The notes under the pieces were generated by a model. It was not told the origin of the DNA. It searched no databases and saw nothing but the letters and a program-made list of their open reading frames with translations. Position numbers and translations under genes: made by a program. 32,234 nt of DNA from SAR116 cluster bacterium AG-325-F22 (GTDB lineage Bacteria > Pseudomonadota > Alphaproteobacteria > Puniceispirillales > Marisalimonadaceae), in assembly GCA_003282885.1 (NCBI GenBank), contig QBYJ01000017.1:1-32234 (forward strand), read 5' to 3'. Shown one piece after another: positions 21,291 to 29,175 of this stretch (its first letter is position 1; each line of letters starts with the position of its first letter).

Positions 21291-21310
21291 TAAATGAAAT
21301 ATTAATTATT
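21282..21310. repeat. Perfect inverted repeat spanning two convergent stop codons
   Basis: AATAATTAAT (21282-21291) and ATTAATTATT (21301-21310) form a perfect 10-bp stem with a 9-base loop. The stop of the 88-residue ORF and the stop of the last bactofilin gene each lie in one arm. It could act as a weak two-way terminator, but the stem has no G-C pair and may be chance in such AT-rich DNA. Confidence 0.35.
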
Positions 21311-21624
21311 TAAGAAATTCTGGTTATACTTCCTGATACTTCTGCGCCAAGATCAATAGAAAGTGCGTTAGTTTTTAAATTACCTTCAACTTTAGCGCTA
21401 CTAGCTACATTTAAAGTGTTAGCAGCCACTTCACCTTTAACTAACCCTCCCAAAGTAACTTTATCAGCTATTAGATTACCGTCAAATATACTATTTGCCT
21501 CAAGCAAAACATCCTTAGCCCTTAATTCTCCTTTGAATCTTCCAGCAACAACCACAGATGATCCTGCAGAGTCAAGGTTGCCCTCCATTACTAATTCTTC
21601 TGATATATATGTAATTTCACTCAT
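21310..21624 (-). CDS. Bactofilin (third of three)
   Basis: Polymer-forming cytoskeletal protein of 104 residues. Almost the whole chain is the bactofilin right-handed beta-helix, visible as short repeats of the form (V/I)xGxxxGxxxAxxVxLxxxxxxxGxL, from GNLDSAGSSVVVAGRFKGELRAKDVLLEANSIFDGNL to VEGNLKTNALSIDLGAEVSGSI. The flanks are minimal. AGGGAT lies 5 bases before the ATG. It is the last of three tandem bactofilin genes on this strand, 25 bases after the second, and shares their leftward sigma-54 promoter. Confidence 0.92.
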   Translation of the reverse strand: MSEITYISEELVMEGNLDSAGSSVVVAGRFKGELRAKDVLLEANSIFDGNLIADKVTLGGLVKGEVAANTLNVASSAKVEGNLKTNALSIDLGAEVSGSITRIS

Positions 21625-21649: not shown

Positions 21650-22042
21650 TTATTTTTCATTAGATTGCTCTTCTTGAGCAATTTCTTGATTTTCTTGTGT
21701 TTCATCTACATTGTTGGTGTCAGTTTCATTCCAATTATGGACTACCCTACAATTTAAAGCTGCTCCTCTATCCATTTGTAAAGATTTGTAGTGAACCTCC
21801 CCACTTATACGAGATGTTTCTGTTAGCCAAACACTATCAGCTTGCATTTTGCCCTCATATTCTCCAGCAATAACAACTAGTTCTGATTCTACGGCGCCAA
21901 GAAACTTACCAGAAGAACCAATTGTAACTTTTTCAGTTGTCAAATCAGCTTCAACATATCCATTTATTTCTATAGATTTTGCATTTGATATTTTTCCACT
22001 AAAGCGGGCTCCTGATCCTAAAACTGCCTGTTTGTTAGCCAT
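21650..22042 (-). CDS. Bactofilin (second of three)
   Basis: A 130-residue bactofilin. The beta-helix core spans about residues 8-105 (SGARFSGKISNAKSIEINGYVEADLTTEKVTIGSSGKFLG to ISGEVHYKSLQMDRGAALNCRVV). A charged tail rich in Glu, Asn and Gln (ETDTNNVDETQENQEIAQEEQ) follows and is likely disordered. GGGAGA precedes the ATG by 7 bases. It differs from its two neighbours in that acidic tail, so the three are not simple duplicates and may co-polymerise or have separate partners. Confidence 0.92.
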   Translation of the reverse strand: MANKQAVLGSGARFSGKISNAKSIEINGYVEADLTTEKVTIGSSGKFLGAVESELVVIAGEYEGKMQADSVWLTETSRISGEVHYKSLQMDRGAALNCRVVHNWNETDTNNVDETQENQEIAQEEQSNEK

Positions 22043-22054
22043 AAATAATCTCCC

Positions 22055-22399
22055 TTAGTTTTTACTTTTTCTTTTACCAATTTGAGCTTCAACAACAGCT
22101 CCCTCTTCAATAGAGATGTTTTCATAAAAAACTTCACCAGAAATTTTTCCAGTTGATTTTATTGAAACAACATCGCCTGATACTTGCCCATCACACTTTC
22201 CCGACACTGTAACTACATCAGCATCTACATTACCTTTTAAAGTGCCAGTATCTTCAACTGATAAACTATGACACTTAATATCTCCTACAACTGATCCTAG
22301 TAATACTACATCACCGTCTGCGGAAATTTTACCTTTTATCTTCATATCTCTTGATATAGTAGATTTTTCAGTTTCAATATCGTTTGTTTTTCCTAGCAT
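22055..22399 (-). CDS. Bactofilin (first of three)
   Basis: A 114-residue bactofilin and the promoter-proximal member of the trio. A short polar head (MLGKTNDIETEKSTISRDM) is followed by KIKGKISADGDVVLLGSVVGDIKCHSLSVEDTGTLKGNVDADVVTVSGKCDGQVSGDVVSIKSTGKISGEVFYENISIEEGAVVEAQIG in the typical six-residue beta-helix rhythm (described here in parts: KGKISADGDVVL, GTLKGNVDADVV, GKISGEVFYENI). It ends in a basic tail (KRKSKN). AGGA lies before the ATG. The upstream gap of 179 bases holds a strong sigma-54 promoter facing it. Confidence 0.93.
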   Translation of the reverse strand: MLGKTNDIETEKSTISRDMKIKGKISADGDVVLLGSVVGDIKCHSLSVEDTGTLKGNVDADVVTVSGKCDGQVSGDVVSIKSTGKISGEVFYENISIEEGAVVEAQIGKRKSKN

Positions 22400-22511
22400 T
22401 ATGGAAATCCTTTTATTAATTGATTTAAAAATTTTTTTTTAATTAACTTCAACTAAACTACTTTACTACAAATAAACGTAAAATAAAAAAATTATTTATA
22501 AAGCACTTATT

Positions 22512-22539
22512 TGGTATGAATGATGCAATTAACTTGCCA
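22512..22539. promoter_or_regulatory. Bidirectional sigma-54 promoter (bactofilins / M23 operon)
   Basis: Rightward core: TGGTATGAATGATGCA at 22512-22527 (GG and GC 10 bases apart; predicted start near 22538, about 40 bases before the ATG at 22579). Leftward core, read on the minus strand from 22539 to 22524: TGGCAAGTTAATTGCA, near-perfect against TGGCAC-N5-TTGCA (predicted start near 22513, about 113 bases before the first bactofilin ATG). The two share the palindrome TGCA at 22524-22527 as -12 element. Confidence 0.75.
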
Positions 22540-22578: not shown

Positions 22579-22953
22579 ATGGCCGAAGAAATTATTGATT
22601 TAAGAGATCGTATAGAACAGATGAGAATACAGATTGAAAATGAGGCTGTAGAACAAATTTCACAAGACCCACCCCTAGAAATCCGTCAACAAACTAGTAA
22701 CTCAAATATCTCTTTGTCTTTGCAAAATAATAAAGATCATGCGAATCAAAATAATAATAAGCCATTAGATTCTAAAGATGTTTATAAAAATGATAAAAAA
22801 ATTGATAAGCCTCATATGAAAAAAGAAACCTTTCCCGCTGTTAGCTTATCAGTTAAAAACCCTGTTTCTAGTAAAGTTTTAATTTTTATGGTGACATTAC
22901 AGATTTTATCTAATATTGGAATTTTGTATTTTTTATATTTAGGTATGGAGTAG
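22579..22953 (+). CDS. Small single-pass membrane protein of unknown function
   Basis: A 124-residue protein. The N-terminal 25 residues (EEIIDLRDRIEQMRIQIENEAVEQI) should form a short coiled coil. A polar, Asn/Lys/Asp-rich middle is probably disordered. A single membrane helix lies at the C-terminus (about residues 99-121, KVLIFMVTLQILSNIGILYFLYLG). This suggests a tail-anchored cytoplasmic adaptor. It is translationally coupled to the M23 peptidase gene (3 bases between them) and diverges from the bactofilins. I infer a link between cytoplasmic bactofilin polymers and the membrane-bound peptidase; no known family is recognised. Confidence 0.75.
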   Translation: MAEEIIDLRDRIEQMRIQIENEAVEQISQDPPLEIRQQTSNSNISLSLQNNKDHANQNNNKPLDSKDVYKNDKKIDKPHMKKETFPAVSLSVKNPVSSKVLIFMVTLQILSNIGILYFLYLGME

Positions 22954-22956
22954 TTA

Positions 22957-24348
22957 GTGGTGAATACCACGTTTAATAAGTTTGGAAAAAAACTTCCTCC
23001 GGTTAAGACAGGTCAACGTTTTGGAGAAGAAGTTAAAAAAGATAAAAAAGTAGGACTGTTTTCCGAAAGACGATTTCTAATTTTCACTAAAAAAGGGCCC
23101 ATAGAAATTGCATTTAAACCAATACACTATACTAGTGTACTTATAACAACAATTATTGGTTTAACTAGCATTGTTTACTGGTCTGCAAAGGGTATATATT
23201 CTGCAATAGATGTAGCAAAAAAAAACGATATAATTACTGAAGCCTCAGCCAATATAAATGATACAATAGAAAATGACTCAGATACTAATGTAAACATAAA
23301 TATTGAAGATCAGTCAAACATAACACTCCCTATTTTGAAAAAAGCAATTGTAGAAGTTGACAAAGTTGAAGTTTACGAACCAATCAAAAATAAAAATGAA
23401 AATGATTTTAATGAAGAAAGTAAATTAGCAAAAAAACTAAATTTTAAAGAGCTTAAAAACAAACTGACTACAGATTTAAAAAATAAAATAATTTTTAACT
23501 CAACAAAAACTATTGCTAAAAATAAGAATATCGATTTATATAACAAAACTCAAAGAAATCAAGATATTCCTAATGAATTGGTAAATCAATTACCAAATGA
23601 AAGCAATATCTTGATATCTGAAAATTACAAATCTAATACAAATCAAAACATTCAATATCCTCAACCTCCAAAACTAAATGATAAGGTTAAAAGTTTACGT
23701 TTTATTGCCACTGTTGACAATGAACTTATACAAATGGAAAATGTATTTAAGGCTATAAATGTAAAATTAAAAAACGATGATTTGGTAAGTATTGAAACAA
23801 TTATCAAAAATAATCAAACAATCGATCCAGACAGTGATGATTTTTTTAGAAGCCTAAAAAACCGCCTTAATTTACTAGCAATTTATAAAGAAGCACTACA
23901 AAATTTACCACTTAAACCACCAATGGAACATTATTACATTTCAAGTCCATATGGACCTAGGAAACATCCTGTAACTGGTAAATATAGAATGCATCATGGG
24001 ATAGACTTAGCAGGAACTTGGCAAGAAAATGTTTCAGTTTCTGCAGATGGTACAGTAGTTTTTGCTGGCTATCATGGGTCTTTTGGTAAAGTTATTCGTA
24101 TCAGACATAACTATGGTATTATGACAACTTATGGTCACTTAGCCAAAATAAATGTAAGAAGAGGAGACATAGTAAACGAAGGTCAAGTTATAGGTAAGAT
24201 GGGAAGGACTGGTAAAGTAAAAGGAGCTCATCTGCATTACGAGATTTCTGTTAATGGAAAGTCTCAAAATCCTGCCACATATATTAAAATAGGTAGAAAC
24301 CTTCTTAGTAGGACGAGTTTAAAAGGATATGCTAATAAAAATAAATGA
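22957..24348 (+). CDS. Membrane-anchored M23 (LytM) peptidoglycan endopeptidase
   Basis: A 463-residue protein. One membrane helix lies at about residues 52-75 (YTSVLITTIIGLTSIVYWSAK) behind a basic cytoplasmic head that includes a FSERRFLIFTKKGPIEIAF segment. A long Asn/Lys-rich periplasmic stalk follows, then a catalytic domain from about 325. Zinc ligands are intact: His346 and Asp350 (MHHGID), and His427 of HLHYE (His425 is the partner histidine). SSPYGPRKHPVTGKYR and TTYGHLAKINVRRGDIV are typical M23 blocks. It therefore should cut cross-links rather than be a degenerate activator. The start is GTG at 22957, with GGAG 6 bases upstream; a second GTG follows directly. M23 peptidases next to bactofilins control cell shape in other bacteria. 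Confidence 0.92.
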   Translation: MVNTTFNKFGKKLPPVKTGQRFGEEVKKDKKVGLFSERRFLIFTKKGPIEIAFKPIHYTSVLITTIIGLTSIVYWSAKGIYSAIDVAKKNDIITEASANINDTIENDSDTNVNINIEDQSNITLPILKKAIVEVDKVEVYEPIKNKNENDFNEESKLAKKLNFKELKNKLTTDLKNKIIFNSTKTIAKNKNIDLYNKTQRNQDIPNELVNQLPNESNILISENYKSNTNQNIQYPQPPKLNDKVKSLRFIATVDNELIQMENVFKAINVKLKNDDLVSIETIIKNNQTIDPDSDDFFRSLKNRLNLLAIYKEALQNLPLKPPMEHYYISSPYGPRKHPVTGKYRMHHGIDLAGTWQENVSVSADGTVVFAGYHGSFGKVIRIRHNYGIMTTYGHLAKINVRRGDIVNEGQVIGKMGRTGKVKGAHLHYEISVNGKSQNPATYIKIGRNLLSRTSLKGYANKNK

Positions 24349-24359
24349 TCTCAATAATT

Positions 24360-24375
24360 TGGCACAAATAATGCA
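24360..24375 (+). promoter_or_regulatory. Sigma-54 promoter of the 61-residue ORF
   Basis: TGGCACAAATAATGCA has the full TGGCAC -24 element and a TGCA -12 element, 10 bases between GG and GC. The predicted start near 24386 leaves a 19-base leader with GGAG at 24393-24396 and the ATG at 24405. It begins 12 bases after the M23 stop. Unlike the other two sites it has no opposed partner. Confidence 0.8.
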
Positions 24376-24404: not shown

Positions 24405-24590
24405 ATGTTACCTAAGAAAATCAACGTTTCAAAAACCGTTGCACCTCAAAACAGTTTAAACAAATTAAATAAATATGTTATAAAGATTGATTATTTTGAC
24501 CAAGAAGGCACTAAGAATTTTGAGGACAATATCCCATTAAAATATATTTTTAATTCATCAGATATTAAATTATCTGAAATTAATATATAG
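24405..24590 (+). CDS. Small sigma-54-controlled protein of unknown function (61 residues)
   Basis: Not recognised. The product begins MLPKKINVSKTVAPQNSLNK. It continues with KYVIKIDYFDQEGTKNFEDN and ends IFNSSDIKLSEINI. It is soluble, with no signal peptide or cysteine, and probably folds as a short beta unit (VIKIDYFD). Evidence that it is a gene: a textbook sigma-54 promoter 45 bases upstream, a GGAG ribosome site at 8 bases, and a tightly matched ORF ending 24 bases before the convergent rpoN stop. It lies between the M23 gene and rpoN, in the sigma-54 cluster, which suggests a role tied to motility or envelope shape. Confidence 0.7.
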   Translation: MLPKKINVSKTVAPQNSLNKLNKYVIKIDYFDQEGTKNFEDNIPLKYIFNSSDIKLSEINI

Positions 24591-24613: not shown

Positions 24614-26104
24614 TTAACCATTACAAAAATTTTGTAACCTTGTTTCTCTTCTTCTTTGAGAGCTTGATGGTATATTTAGCATATCTCTATACTTAGCTAC
24701 CGTCCTTCTAGCAACTTCCATCCCTTCCTTATTTAGTATTATTGCTAATTTGTCATCGCTTAGAGGTTTACCTGCAATTTCTGAAGAAATAAGAGATTTA
24801 ATAGTTTCTCTTACTGCCGATGCAGCATGGGATTCTGAATTTTCTGAACTAGCAATAGACGCAGAAAAAAAGTTTTTTAAAGGCATTACTCCCCACTCAG
24901 TCAAAATTAATTTACTATTAGTGACTCTTGAAACTGTGCTTTCGTGCATTCCTATTGCATCAGAAATATCTTTTAATATCATTGGTTTCATATGATTAAA
25001 ACCATGTCTGAAGAATCCTACCTGTTTTTTTACTATTTCAGCTGTTACTCTTATAATTGTTTTATTTCTTTGTTCTACTGCTTTTTTTAACCAACGTGCT
25101 TCACCTATTTTCTCATCAGCAAAGTTAGTGCCTTTTTCGTCAAAATTATAATTATTAATTTCTGAAATATACTCCTCATCTAAATCTACAGATGGCAATG
25201 TTGATCTATTTAAATCAATACGCCAACCCTTTTCGGTTTTTGATACAATTATATCTGGTTGGTCTATCATTATATTTTCTTGTTGGAATTGTTCAGCAGG
25301 TTTTGGATTTAAAGTTTTGATAATTTTAATCATTTTAAATAATTGTTCTTCAGTAACTTCACAAAGTTTGCTTACTTGTTTAAATTTTCCTATCGATAAA
25401 TATTGAAGATTTTTTAAAAGAATATCATAATGTTTGTTATAATAATTATTATCTATTAATTGAATTTTTAGACATTCAGCCAAACTTTCTGAAAATATTC
25501 CAACTGGTTCAAGTTTTTTTAATTTTTGAAGAGTTTTTTCAACTATAGAATTATTTATATTTAAATCCTCTGAAACTTTATCTATTGAAAAAGTAAACCA
25601 TCCACTAGGATGTAAATAATCAATCATTGCAATAGCAATTTCTTTATAATCTGAATTATGAAACTCAATATTAATTTGATTAACTAAATATTCCTTTAAA
25701 GAAGTTTTATTTTTTAATGTTTTTTCAATTACTTCACCTGCAGAGATATTATTACCTGATTTGAGAATCTCTTTATCATATAATTTTTTATTTTCTAGGT
25801 TTGCATTTGAAGATAAATGAGTATCAAAAGTGTTTTCTAAATCAATTTTATTTTCTTTTTTTACTAGTTCATTCGTATTATTCAAATTATCACAGACATT
25901 TTGATTGATCTTATCATTATTAATTAGTTTTTTTTCTGTAAATTCTTTTGTTTCTTGTAAAAATGGATTTTCTAATTGGGCTTTTTCAATATAATCAGAC
26001 AATTCAATATTAGTTAATTGTAATAATTTTATTGCTTGTTGTAATTGAGGTGTCATTATTAATGACTGGTTTTGTTTTAATTTTAACTGATGTCCTAACT
26101 TCAT
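24614..26104 (-). CDS. rpoN: RNA polymerase sigma-54 factor RpoN
   Basis: Alternative sigma factor needing AAA+ activators. The N-terminal activator-interacting region is clear (LGHQLKLKQNQSLIMTPQLQQAIKLLQLTNIELSDYI), followed by an acidic, Asn-rich region II and the core-binding domain. The helix-turn-helix contains KDISDAIGMHESTVSRVTNSK, and the C-terminal RpoN box is ARRTVAKYRDMLNIPSSSQRR. I start it at the ATG at 26104 (MKLGHQ), four codons inside the longest frame (ATG at 26116). GGAG then lies 6 bases upstream as the ribosome site, and the family also starts at this point. It is flanked by genes carrying sigma-54 promoters on both sides. Confidence 0.96.
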   Translation of the reverse strand: MKLGHQLKLKQNQSLIMTPQLQQAIKLLQLTNIELSDYIEKAQLENPFLQETKEFTEKKLINNDKINQNVCDNLNNTNELVKKENKIDLENTFDTHLSSNANLENKKLYDKEILKSGNNISAGEVIEKTLKNKTSLKEYLVNQINIEFHNSDYKEIAIAMIDYLHPSGWFTFSIDKVSEDLNINNSIVEKTLQKLKKLEPVGIFSESLAECLKIQLIDNNYYNKHYDILLKNLQYLSIGKFKQVSKLCEVTEEQLFKMIKIIKTLNPKPAEQFQQENIMIDQPDIIVSKTEKGWRIDLNRSTLPSVDLDEEYISEINNYNFDEKGTNFADEKIGEARWLKKAVEQRNKTIIRVTAEIVKKQVGFFRHGFNHMKPMILKDISDAIGMHESTVSRVTNSKLILTEWGVMPLKNFFSASIASSENSESHAASAVRETIKSLISSEIAGKPLSDDKLAIILNKEGMEVARRTVAKYRDMLNIPSSSQRRRETRLQNFCNG

Positions 26105-26152
26105 ATCAATCTCCATTTATAATTTTATACCGATGATGAAAAGAAAAACAGA

Positions 26153-26615: not shown

Positions 26616-27110
26616 TTATCTGTCTCGAACTAGCCTTACATAGTTAGGAATAAAACCTGGAAACCTTCCAAAAGTATAACCAGTATAAAAGTTTACCGTC
26701 CACATAAACTTTGGTTGCCAAGGATTTTTTTCACTAGTCCAAAAAGACTCCGGTGGGGTGTTTGGGAATATATCTTTATTTATTTTAACTTTTTCACAAT
26801 TTGCGCAAATTATTTTCTCTAATTCTACCCTCTTTGGAAGTCTCCACTGACCTTTAAGTTGTTCATTTGCTTGAAGTATAACAGCGTCAATATCATCAAA
26901 TTTAAGTTTGATTGGATTTCCAACACAAGTCTTTTGTTCCCAAACCATCCCAACGGGACAAGTTAACCATTCAAGTTTTTGAGTTAAGTCAATAACATAA
27001 TGTCCTCTAGAAACAAAATTATTAGCCCAAACACTATTGAAATTATTACTAATTAGGAATAATATCAACAAAGCACAAATATTTTGTAATACAGTTTTAA
27101 AGAATAACAT
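26616..27110 (-). CDS. Secreted DUF1566-like protein
   Basis: A 164-residue protein with a signal peptide (residues 1-29, hydrophobic ICALLILFLI, cleavage after SVWA). The mature part resembles the DUF1566 (Lcl C-terminal) domain: DLTQKLEWLTCPVGM near the start, WRLPKRVELEKII, SFWTSEKNP and a final NYVRLVRDR. Four cysteines, Cys51/Cys62 and Cys102/Cys105, could form two disulfides in the periplasm or outside. AGAGG precedes the ATG. It diverges from motA, and its predicted sigma-54 promoter overlaps the motA promoter, which points to a motility-linked or surface role. The exact function is unknown. Confidence 0.75.
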   Translation of the reverse strand: MLFFKTVLQNICALLILFLISNNFNSVWANNFVSRGHYVIDLTQKLEWLTCPVGMVWEQKTCVGNPIKLKFDDIDAVILQANEQLKGQWRLPKRVELEKIICANCEKVKINKDIFPNTPPESFWTSEKNPWQPKFMWTVNFYTGYTFGRFPGFIPNYVRLVRDR

Positions 27111-27150: not shown

Positions 27151-27178
27151 TGGTCTCATTCTTGCAGAAATTGTGCCT
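27151..27178. promoter_or_regulatory. Bidirectional sigma-54 promoter (motAB / DUF1566 gene)
   Basis: Rightward core: TGGTCTCATTCTTGCA at 27151-27166, predicted start near 27177, 36 bases before the motA ATG. Leftward core, read on the minus strand from 27178 to 27163: AGGCACAATTTCTGCA, predicted start near 27152, about 42 bases before the DUF1566-like ATG. Both keep the GG-N10-GC spacing and share the palindrome TGCA at 27163-27166 as -12 element. Confidence 0.75.
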
Positions 27179-27212: not shown

Positions 27213-27977
27213 ATGGATATAGCTTCTCTGATTGGTATAATAGGAACTCTTGGTATGATAGCAGGAGCGATGATTTCGTCTGGTGGTTTAGGAATGTTTG
27301 TGGATACCCCATCTATGTTAATTGTTATAGGGGGTACCTTTTTTGCAGTTATGTACCGTTCGACCTTGCCGATGTTTTTAGGGTCTTTTGGAACACTCAT
27401 GAAAGTTTTTATGCCAGGTGCAAAAAAACATGATGAATTAATCACACGGTTAACTGAGTTAGCAGGAATAGCACGAAAAGATGGGATGATGGCATTAGAA
27501 GGGCAAGAAGTTCCTGATAAATTTTTTGAAAAGGGATTACAAATGCTTGTTGATGGAGCAGATGAAACAAAATTAACTGACCAGCTTAATAGAGAAGTTA
27601 AAGCTATGCAAAAAAGACATGAAGATGCAACAGGTGTGTTTCAAGCTTGGGTAGATTTAGCGCCTGCTATGGGCATGATTGGAACGTTGATTGGTTTGGT
27701 TGCTATGTTGGGTAACATGGCGGACCCAAAAGCAATTGGACCTGCTATGGCAGTTGCATTATTAACAACTTTATACGGAGCTATGATTGCTAACTGTATT
27801 TTTATGCCAATAGTGACCAAACTTGAACATTATTCTGCTCACGAACTACTTTACAGGCAAATGGTAGTCATGGGATTAAAATTTATATCTAGAGGTGAAA
27901 GCCCGAGAAATATAACTGATCAGCTTGTAGCAAATTTACCTCCAAAAATTCAAGCTCAAATTGAAGAAGCAGCTTAA
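27213..27977 (+). CDS. motA: Flagellar stator protein MotA, PomA (sodium) type
   Basis: Inner-membrane stator subunit that pushes on the flagellar rotor. The 254-residue length and the opening MDIASLIGIIGTLGMIAGAMISSGGLGMFVDTPSMLIVIGGTFF match Vibrio-type PomA rather than the longer proton-type MotA. Four membrane segments are seen, at about 4-21, 33-50, 150-170 and 180-203. The last pair carries DLAPAMGMIGTLIGLVAMLGNMADPKAIGPAMAVALLTTLYGAMIAN, the ion-channel-lining helices with the conserved prolines. The cytoplasmic loop holds rotor-contacting charges (such as RKDGMMALEGQE). AAGG precedes the ATG. It is the first gene of the motA-motB-RRF-like operon under a sigma-54 promoter. Confidence 0.95.
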   Translation: MDIASLIGIIGTLGMIAGAMISSGGLGMFVDTPSMLIVIGGTFFAVMYRSTLPMFLGSFGTLMKVFMPGAKKHDELITRLTELAGIARKDGMMALEGQEVPDKFFEKGLQMLVDGADETKLTDQLNREVKAMQKRHEDATGVFQAWVDLAPAMGMIGTLIGLVAMLGNMADPKAIGPAMAVALLTTLYGAMIANCIFMPIVTKLEHYSAHELLYRQMVVMGLKFISRGESPRNITDQLVANLPPKIQAQIEEAA

Positions 27978-28002: not shown

Positions 28003-29175
28003 ATGGCAGAAGCTCAAGTTGAAGAAGTAGAAGAAGAAGAATGTCCCAAATGCCCTCCTCAAGGAGCACCTGCTTGGATGGCAACATTTGCTGATATGGC
28101 AACTCTTTTGATGGCATTTTTTGTTTTAATATTATCTTTTGCTGAATTTAATGTGCCAAAATTCAAACAAATAAGTGGTAGTCTAAAAAATGCCTTTGGA
28201 ATCCAGAGAGTTGTTCCAGTAGTTGAGCAACCTAAAGGCACAACAGTTCTTGCGTTGAATTTCAGTCCGTCGCCCGCACCCTCAGTAACAAAGAATTTGA
28301 GACAGCAAACATCAGATTCTGAGCAAAAGAATTTAGATCTTAAATCAGAAATTGATGAAGGGGATAGTGCTAAAAGTAATTCAAAAGAAACATTAGATGC
28401 TAAAAAATTAAGTGAAGAAATAATTGATAAAATTATGTCTGATGATGTAAAAGTTGAAACAGTTAATGATAAAGTTTTAGTAAGTGTGAATACTGAAAAC
28501 AAATCATCAGAAGAAATTTCAAAATTAATCAAAGATACCGTTGATGCAGTTGAAACTGCTCGAGAGAATACAGGAGCCACTGAAACAGACGTACTTATAG
28601 GTGGTATTGATCAAAATATAAAATCAATGGCATCTTCAACTATTGAAAACCAATCACTCAAAGATAAAGTCAACAAGTTAGAAAAACAAAAATCTGAAAA
28701 TAAAAAAGATATTCAAGAAAAAACAAAAAAAGCTGAATTTAGTGAAGATGAATTAAGAGTAGCATTAAAACAAGAGATTGGTAAAGGTTTGGCTGAAGTT
28801 CAAAGGGAAAAAGATAGAGTAGTTGTTACTGTTGGATCTGCTGGTGCATTTAGTTCTGGCTCGGCAAAATTAACAAAACAGGCAAGAGCGATTATGCAGA
28901 AGATTGCTAAAGTCAGCGGTAAAGGAGCAGGCCAAGTAAATGTTTCTGGACATACTGATGATGTACCTTTAATTTTTGGAGGTCAGTATAGAGATAATTG
29001 GGATTTGGCAGCTGCTAGAGCTTCTAGCGTGGTTCAGGAATTATCTAAAGCCAATACAATTCCGTCTGAGAGATTAAAGGCTATAAGTTTTGGTGAAACA
29101 AAGCCAATAGAACAAAATGATACAAGAGAAGGAAGAGAAAAGAATAGAAGAATTGAAATTGAAATTAAATATTGA
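28003..29175 (+). CDS. motB: Flagellar stator protein MotB, PomB (sodium) type
   Basis: Stator subunit that anchors to peptidoglycan. The N-terminal ECPKCPPQGAPAWMATFADMATLLMAFFVLILSFAEFNVPKFKQISGSLKNAFG is close to PomB. The single membrane helix (about 26-46) contains the ion-carrying Asp31. The periplasmic part has an acidic, lysine-rich linker of about 170 residues and an OmpA-like peptidoglycan-binding domain at about 255-388 (GAFSSGSAKLTKQARAIM, VSGHTDDVPL, NWDLAAARASSVVQEL, ENRRIEIEI-like end). At 390 residues it is longer than Vibrio PomB because of the linker. It lies 25 bases after motA, with AGGA before the ATG. Confidence 0.95.
   Translation: MAEAQVEEVEEEECPKCPPQGAPAWMATFADMATLLMAFFVLILSFAEFNVPKFKQISGSLKNAFGIQRVVPVVEQPKGTTVLALNFSPSPAPSVTKNLRQQTSDSEQKNLDLKSEIDEGDSAKSNSKETLDAKKLSEEIIDKIMSDDVKVETVNDKVLVSVNTENKSSEEISKLIKDTVDAVETARENTGATETDVLIGGIDQNIKSMASSTIENQSLKDKVNKLEKQKSENKKDIQEKTKKAEFSEDELRVALKQEIGKGLAEVQREKDRVVVTVGSAGAFSSGSAKLTKQARAIMQKIAKVSGKGAGQVNVSGHTDDVPLIFGGQYRDNWDLAAARASSVVQELSKANTIPSERLKAISFGETKPIEQNDTREGREKNRRIEIEIKY

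Follow-up and report, generated by a model that had tools for sequence, protein, structure and literature searches.

We suggest that the 28-bp block at positions 22512-22539 of the window (the whole 32,234-nt stretch of SAR116 DNA that was analysed) is a bidirectional sigma-54 promoter, in which two opposed cores have their -12 element in common and one bound holoenzyme excludes the other. We regard this as the probable reading and extend it to a second block at 27151-27178. We infer the use of sigma-54 at the site, the firing in both directions, the exclusion and the regulatory meaning from sequence, spacing, conservation, the fit to a promoter matrix and the one-way arrangements of relatives.

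A previous sequence-only reading of this DNA had described two opposed sigma-54-type cores with one TGCA at this place. The opposed cores and their overlap stand: both arms are under selection, and both fit a matrix made from other sites of the order. The second copy at 27151-27178 and the one-way and separated states of the relatives had been missed.

Opposed cores in the bactofilin-M23 gap

The block reads TGGTATGAATGATGCAATTAACTTGCCA and has the layout TGG-N9-TGCA-N9-CCA, as first described. It is placed in a 179-bp divergent gap between the bactofilin start at 22399 (-) and the small-protein start at 22579 (+) (Table 1). Judged by the letters, one core element serves both strands, TGCA 22524-22527 here and TGCA 27163-27166 in the second block. 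The two cores of the first pair overlap by 4 bp. With GC taken as -13/-12, the rightward start is predicted at 22538 (+), with a leader of about 41 nt, and the leftward start at 22513 (-), with a leader of about 114 nt; the length of the latter counts against a two-way promoter. The predicted starts are 25 bp apart and, as had been claimed, each falls on the GG of the opposing promoter. The geometry of the overlap also supports the proposal that only one holoenzyme could sit here at a time.

The extended sigma-54 consensus is TGGCAC-N5-TTGCA. Compared with it, the leftward half is off at one listed position and the rightward half at three, and both qualify as sigma-54-type cores; of the two, the rightward one fits less well, with TGGTA followed by ATGCA or GTGCA. 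All 41 gaps with the first pair and all 36 with the second show the exact GG-N10-GC spacing (-24/-12) on each strand.

Table 1. Promoter-like elements and genes of the window
Feature	Position	Strand	Core sequence or family match	Remark
Pair 1, rightward sigma-54-type core	22512..22527	+	TGGTATGAATGATGCA	would serve small protein/M23 operon
Pair 1, leftward sigma-54-type core	22524..22539	-	TGGCAAGTTAATTGCA	would serve three bactofilins
Pair 1, common palindromic TGCA	22524..22527	.	TGCA	putative -12 element of both cores; 0 inferred changes, M23 tree, 41 sequences
Single sigma-54-type core after M23	24360..24375	+	TGGCACAAATAATGCA	ahead of 61-aa ORF; one-way comparison
Pair 2, rightward core	27151..27166	+	TGGTCTCATTCTTGCA	would serve motA; predicted start 27177, leader ~36 nt
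Pair 2, leftward core	27163..27178	-	AGGCACAATTTCTGCA	would serve Lcl_C-domain gene; predicted start 27152, leader ~42 nt
Bactofilin 3	21310..21624	-	PF04519, E 1.8e-18	
Bactofilin 2	21650..22042	-	PF04519, E 3.6e-21	
Bactofilin 1	22055..22399	-	PF04519, E 4.1e-21	
124-aa protein	22579..22953	+	ORF; no Pfam family above cut-off	first gene of rightward operon; C-terminal hydrophobic stretch by eye
M23-family peptidase	22957..24348	+	PF01551, E 2.8e-29	
rpoN (sigma-54)	24614..26116	-	PF04552, PF04963, PF00309; TIGR02395 above cut-off	
Lcl_C-domain protein	26616..27110	-	PF07603, E 6.7e-20	
MotA-type stator protein	27213..27977	+	PF01618, E 4.6e-29	
MotB-type stator protein	28003..29175	+	PF13677 and PF00691	

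Conservation of both orientations

The sequence-only reading had pointed to the gaps of related genomes as the place where the two half-sites should recur, and both are conserved there. An M23-like match is present in 60 of the 61 genomes searched. The ortholog search returned 46 loci, 44 of which were examined and 42 of which reach the gap (left out are L100, whose contig ends before the gap, L125, whose contig begins too near M23, and the weak matches L126 and L127). The core is at the same gap position in 40 of these 42 SAR116-type loci and in the window, 41 in total. It is absent from L123 (36% identity) and L124 (34%), the most distant of the 42.

Across the 41 core-bearing gaps the rightward TGG and TGCA and the leftward TGGC and TTGCA are invariant. 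Fitch counts on the M23 protein tree of 41, which takes in L106 as a 168-residue fragment (interrupted peptidase frame), give no change in ten key columns (TGG, TGCA, CCA) and 0-7 changes in the other 18 core columns. The 20+20 flanking columns have a mean of 5.9, and in both pairs the counts far from the core are inflated by indels because columns were compared without gaps. When 10 of the 28 core columns are drawn by permutation, so few changes occur with p of about 0.0006. The lack of change in both outer arms indicates that both orientations of the first pair are under selection.

Both spacers vary in the 13 most diverged loci, while TGG, TGCA and CCA do not, nor do C4 and the -12 T of the leftward core. 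In these loci TGGC...TTGCA persists in the leftward core and TGGTA...TGCA in the rightward one, and spacer columns 22519 and 22521 are also invariant. Among loci of the window's genus the spacers hardly vary either. A bare sigma-54 core would not need this, hence a further factor may bind. The spacers may be frozen either by such a factor or because in each of them the opposing promoter has its start region.

Fit to a sigma-54 matrix

A matrix of 37 distinct sites, 32 from the flhA gap across the order and 5 from the flagellar contig C25, was used to score 64,438 positions on the two strands of the window. The best score goes to the single site at 24360, followed by the leftward (rank 2) and rightward (rank 3) halves of the first pair. 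In the second pair, the leftward half takes rank 4 and the rightward half only rank 21. This matrix supersedes a first one of 48 sites, which is not independent because three of its sites are rightward ones from the outgroups' M23 gap and another is the window's 24360 site; the halves of the first pair had the same ranks (2 and 3) with it. The per-locus scores for the diverged loci come from the 48-site matrix: the rightward half scores 11.0 in 7 of the 13, and the leftward half outscores the rightward one in the window and in all 13.

A second pair upstream of motA

Another opposed pair with a common TGCA, TGGTCTCATTCTTGCAGAAATTGTGCCT, is found at 27151-27178, 4.6 kb from the first one. It is placed in the 102-bp gap between motA (27213, +) and the Lcl_C-domain gene (start 27110, -), and rpoN is situated between the two shared-core gaps. 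The pair is present in 36 of the 37 loci reaching motA (window counted), and its rightward core in all 37. The motA gap of L124 has the rightward half alone, and L123 carries the fully symmetric TGG...CCA version. Over the 36 loci, with L124 left out, the GG, TGCA and CC columns do not change at all. Core and spacer are less sharply separated here than in the first pair because the spacer columns are also largely conserved. The leftward leader is 35-51 nt long in six of the seven loci tried, the seventh being one where no start was found.

One-way relatives and the order of origin

In the M23 gap the rightward site is present in two of the eight outgroup loci (L072-L079). These two, L076 and L077, have the rightward core only (TGGCATGTCGTTTGCT, TGGCACGTCATTTGCT), a textbook sigma-54 core with no dyad. 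The other six (L072-L075, L078, L079) have no good sigma-54-type site between the bactofilin and M23-operon genes, and in none of the eight is there a good one upstream of the bactofilins in the scanned stretch. The motA gap has the rightward site in all eight outgroup loci, and in none of them does an opposed core use its TGCA; in L075 and L078 a leftward GG-N10-GC match does occur at another place of that gap. As to the two SAR116-type loci without the shared core, the M23 gap of L124 has the rightward core only, and in that of L123 the rightward core is joined by a separate leftward one at a distance of about 70 bp. By hand count, the latter site would leave the bactofilin nearly leaderless.

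The simplest reading of these few lineages is that the rightward promoter came first and that the leftward -24 element was added opposite to it, independently in the two gaps. The comparative series of one-way, separated two-way and shared two-way arrangements would provide natural test constructs.

We also note that in the M23 gap of L072-L074 another similar block (ACGAC-N-GTTGCCGTTTATATAAT-like) is in place, perhaps a promoter of a different type.

Sigma-54 machinery

The genome contains rpoN and eight matches to PF00158, four of which are clear activator ATPases, so that it holds what sigma-54 promoters require. Two of these four adjoin flagellin and fliF genes. The activator beside flagellin/fliF with 380 residues has an HTH_8 domain and lacks a receiver domain. 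For its neighbour, the 398-aa activator (L080:9385-10581, contig C25), the best NCBIfam match is FlbD, far below cut-off, and no HTH_8 was found; it thus might not need upstream sites. Two further activators carry receiver domains and HTH_8, and we take them to be NtrC/NtrX-like. By eye, the gap alignments contain no clearly conserved distant block that would mark upstream activator sites.

Five matches to the sigma-54 pattern are on the flagellar contig C25. The search behind them gave 29 matches against 3 in a backwards control, which carries CG for GC, is too lenient in AT-rich genomes and is therefore given little weight here and below.

Frequency of the pattern and ordinary sigma-54 layouts

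TGG-N9-TGCA occurs nine times in the window against 2.8 expected (sd 1.5), and none of 100 shuffles reaches nine; the earlier estimate of one or two chance matches per window was too low. Within the window, N9 has nine matches, and spacings N4-N8 and N10-N15 have 2-4 each. N9 is also the most frequent spacing in contig C25 (6; others 0-5), and it is not so in contig C39 (3; others 0-4). The symmetric TGG-N9-TGCA-N9-CCA is found at four places in the window's 1.6-Mb assembly (63% complete), three of them intragenic, and each of 61 genomes, that of the window among them, has between 0 and 9 copies. The looser WGG-N9-TGCA-N9-CCW has nine places in the assembly, namely the two divergent gaps (22512-22539 and 27151-27178) and seven inside ORFs. 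Hence the symmetric pattern by itself is not uncommon, and the evidence is its conservation, not the match.

Other sigma-54-type sites of this order are arranged differently. Of 41 loci, 39 have TGG-N9-TGC(A/T), with a variable spacer, in the 120 bp that follow M23. Upstream of flhA (identified as FHIPEP family; order-wide, L132-L162; in L132, the one locus tested, the divergent gene encodes an LPP20 lipoprotein) all 27 scored loci of the 30 retrieved (L145, L152 and L154 left out) have their opposed sigma-54-type cores at separate sites. With the flhA cores separate and the 24360 core single, sharing is not the arrangement of the other sigma-54-type sites examined in this order. A candidate third shared core upstream of flhA, first found at L132, was rejected as not conserved, being absent in 22 of 24 loci scored. 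Only the two close genomes of L133 and L134 (query protein 98% identical) have a symmetric partner match at the rightward flhA core, and both keep the usual separate leftward site.

Strict patterns gave no convincing conserved shared core outside SAR116 in 385 genomes of the class and 397 of the phylum. TGGCA-N7-TGCA-N7-TGCCA is present in 4 of the 385 (backwards control 2 genomes) at five places: three inside ORFs, one upstream of flhA and one (L131) between co-directional ORFs. TGGC-N7-TTGCAA-N7-GCCA is present in 30 of the 397 (control 3 genomes). It is intragenic in the window's own genome, and 27 of the other 29 loci are inside ORFs by a mechanical test (some of these ORFs have about 100 aa). 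Of the two outside, that at L179 is in a position unsuited as promoter of its neighbour. The other, L182:1501-1528, is between two divergent genes, upstream of a regulator gene that is presumably rtcR-like; the divergent gene, as we take it, resembles a Ro/TROVE RNA-binding protein. In 60 genomes (G831 and relatives) the search gave 11 places in 9 genomes, with no sign by eye that the double core of L182 is retained.

Proposed mechanism

Sigma-54 polymerase first forms a closed complex on the promoter, the opening of which requires an activator ATPase. In the proposed promoter two -24 elements (TGG, one per strand) would flank one palindromic TGCA -12, thus the polymerase could dock either way round. 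The docked enzyme would cover the -12 and the -24 of the other orientation, so that a single orientation is held at a time. As the holoenzyme waits in the closed complex, we would expect poised enzyme in a mixture of both orientations at the site, in a ratio set by the two -24 elements.

After remodelling by the activator ATPase the docked enzyme would fire, starting rightward near 22538 (small protein, M23) or leftward near 22513 (three bactofilins). Both operons would be on only with the activator, and total initiation would be capped. Over time both would be expressed together under one signal. The block at 27151-27178 would do likewise for motA/motB and the Lcl_C gene.

The sequence-only reading had spoken of a splitting of output between the two operons. 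We favour this wording less, as joint on/off control with alternation seems as likely as a choice. Matched expression would be more sensible than a strict choice because, according to the available text of PMC10945521, bactofilin and M23 peptidase cooperate in Hyphomonas.

In sigma-70 promoters binding and opening of the polymerase are spontaneous, and with sigma-54 docking and opening are distinct steps. A sigma-54 promoter with a shared core would therefore allow one to ask whether the poised orientation is chosen at docking and whether one activator fires both. It would also mean that a single regulator governs the bactofilin scaffolds, the flagellar stators and an M23 wall hydrolase in these ocean bacteria. 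More tentatively, a two-way sigma-54 switch may have evolved at least twice in SAR116, flanking rpoN, with the docked orientation being a stored, flippable state that decides which operon is fired; we hold this to be possible rather than probable.

Alternative explanations

The most serious competitor of the two-way promoter, though an unlikely one, is that only the rightward half is productive, the holoenzyme docked backwards occludes the rightward promoter and so represses it, and the bactofilins are transcribed from another promoter. The outgroups keep the rightward site (2/8 in the M23 gap, 8/8 in the motA gap), L072-L079 have no good sigma-54 site for the bactofilins, and one of two sigma-70-type matches in the gap faces leftward from 22520. 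Silent sigma-54 binding, and repression where the site overlaps another promoter, are reported in the accessible parts of PMC4591121 and PMC8743547. However, the leftward half is the one that outscores its partner in the window and in 13/13 diverged loci, both leftward halves face a divergent gene with motA-gap leaders of 35-51 nt in 6/7 loci tried, and the sigma-70-type matches do not exceed those in shuffles (2 vs 1.7). A dyad operator of a dimeric regulator, with coincidental likeness to sigma-54 sites, would agree with the near-dyad symmetry of the 28 bp and with the near-invariant spacers in the window's genus. We find it still more improbable, since the diverged loci vary the spacers and keep the sigma-54 positions, L076 and L077 have the rightward half as a textbook core with no dyad, and the GG-N10-GC spacing is exact on both strands. 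Moreover, the two gaps match, by hand comparison, at the sigma-54 positions, at TTT before GG and at few other bases.

A functionless match would fit the 0 to 9 copies of the pattern per genome in 61 genomes and the three other copies, all intragenic, in the window's assembly. It is contradicted by the retention in the window and 40/42 loci with zero changes in key columns, and by the second conserved pair, which makes chance extremely improbable. Compatible with the two-way promoter is a weaker form of it, in which both promoters work without any effect on regulation: at natural firing rates the polymerases would seldom collide, and the overlap would only reflect that a small genome is compact. 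In its favour, the gaps measure no more than 179 and 102 bp, and in the available portion of PMC12825309 the basal activity of E. coli sigma-70 bidirectional promoters is low and interference limited. On the other hand, the divergent flhA gap of the order keeps separate opposed promoters in 27/27 loci scored. Sigma-54 closed complexes are long-lived, hence occlusion should matter more than for sigma-70, and we consider compaction as the sole meaning of the overlap doubtful.

Relation to known systems

Sigma-70 bidirectional promoters were reportedly described by Warman in 2021. In E. coli and Salmonella, as far as the accessible text of PMC12825309 and PMC10268837 goes, they have a common near-symmetric -10 element, divergent starts mostly 18 bp apart and steric exclusion of opposing polymerases. 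The former source gives a basal activity in E. coli low enough to limit interference. Neither of the two main texts contains 'sigma54' or 'rpoN'. The promoter proposed here is similar in that one symmetric core element is read on both strands. However, its common element is the sigma-54 -12 (TGCA), the predicted starts fall on the outer -24 elements at a distance of 25 bp, and an activator ATPase would be required for firing.

Divergent sigma-54 operons with separate promoters are, reportedly, known from the E. coli hydrogenase-3 cluster (Lutz, 1990). The flhA gap of the same order likewise has opposed sigma-54-type cores in a flagellar gap, but as separate sites. In D. vulgaris the divergent sigma-54 operons orp1/orp2 have separate promoters, with IHF sites between promoters and activator sites, in the available sections of PMC3897727. 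As there, both divergent operons would be under sigma-54 here, but the cores overlap by 4 bp. In Hyphomonas neptunium the bactofilin BacA and the M23 peptidase LmdC work together and are encoded in a putative bicistronic operon with overlapping genes (PMC10945521, accessible part). Here, bactofilin genes similarly adjoin an M23 peptidase gene, but the operons are divergent and would start from one common core.

Salmonella ChIP-exo places 20 of 418 RpoN sites at bidirectional promoters, a term used there for the arrangement of the genes (PMC10794520, available part). Sigma-54 binding without transcription, and repression at an overlapping promoter, come from PMC4591121 and PMC8743547, and the accessible sections of these E. 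coli maps describe no shared core. Neither do those of PMC12316311, PMC3844500 and PMC4641369. No sigma-54 counterpart of the shared-element bidirectional promoters was found in the open-access literature searched, in agreement with the earlier remark that no named case of this design was known. Control of the cell exterior by sigma-54 is proposed in the available text of PMC3162934, and one regulator for bactofilins, M23 hydrolase and stators would agree with it.

Other features of the gaps

Two other candidates in the 179-bp gap were rejected. ATGAATGATGCAATTAACTTGCCATAATAA, an 8-codon ORF with two stops, could be read as a leader peptide. All three changes within it among 25 same-genus gaps alter codons (GAT to GGT, ATT to AAT) or destroy its ATG (L038), and the ATG is gone in 11 of the 13 diverged loci; one silent change in L104 (ATT to ATA) speaks in its favour. 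Sigma-70 promoters are unsupported, with two matches in the gap against 1.7 expected in shuffles.

To the left of the core, TACTA motifs are repeated about 20 nt apart in many same-genus gaps (window 22440-22490) and might be a regulator site; they are not seen in the gaps of the diverged clade. The 61-aa ORF after M23 (24405-24590), which runs toward the 3' end of rpoN, has no Pfam or NCBIfam match and may represent a small protein or an RNA facing rpoN.
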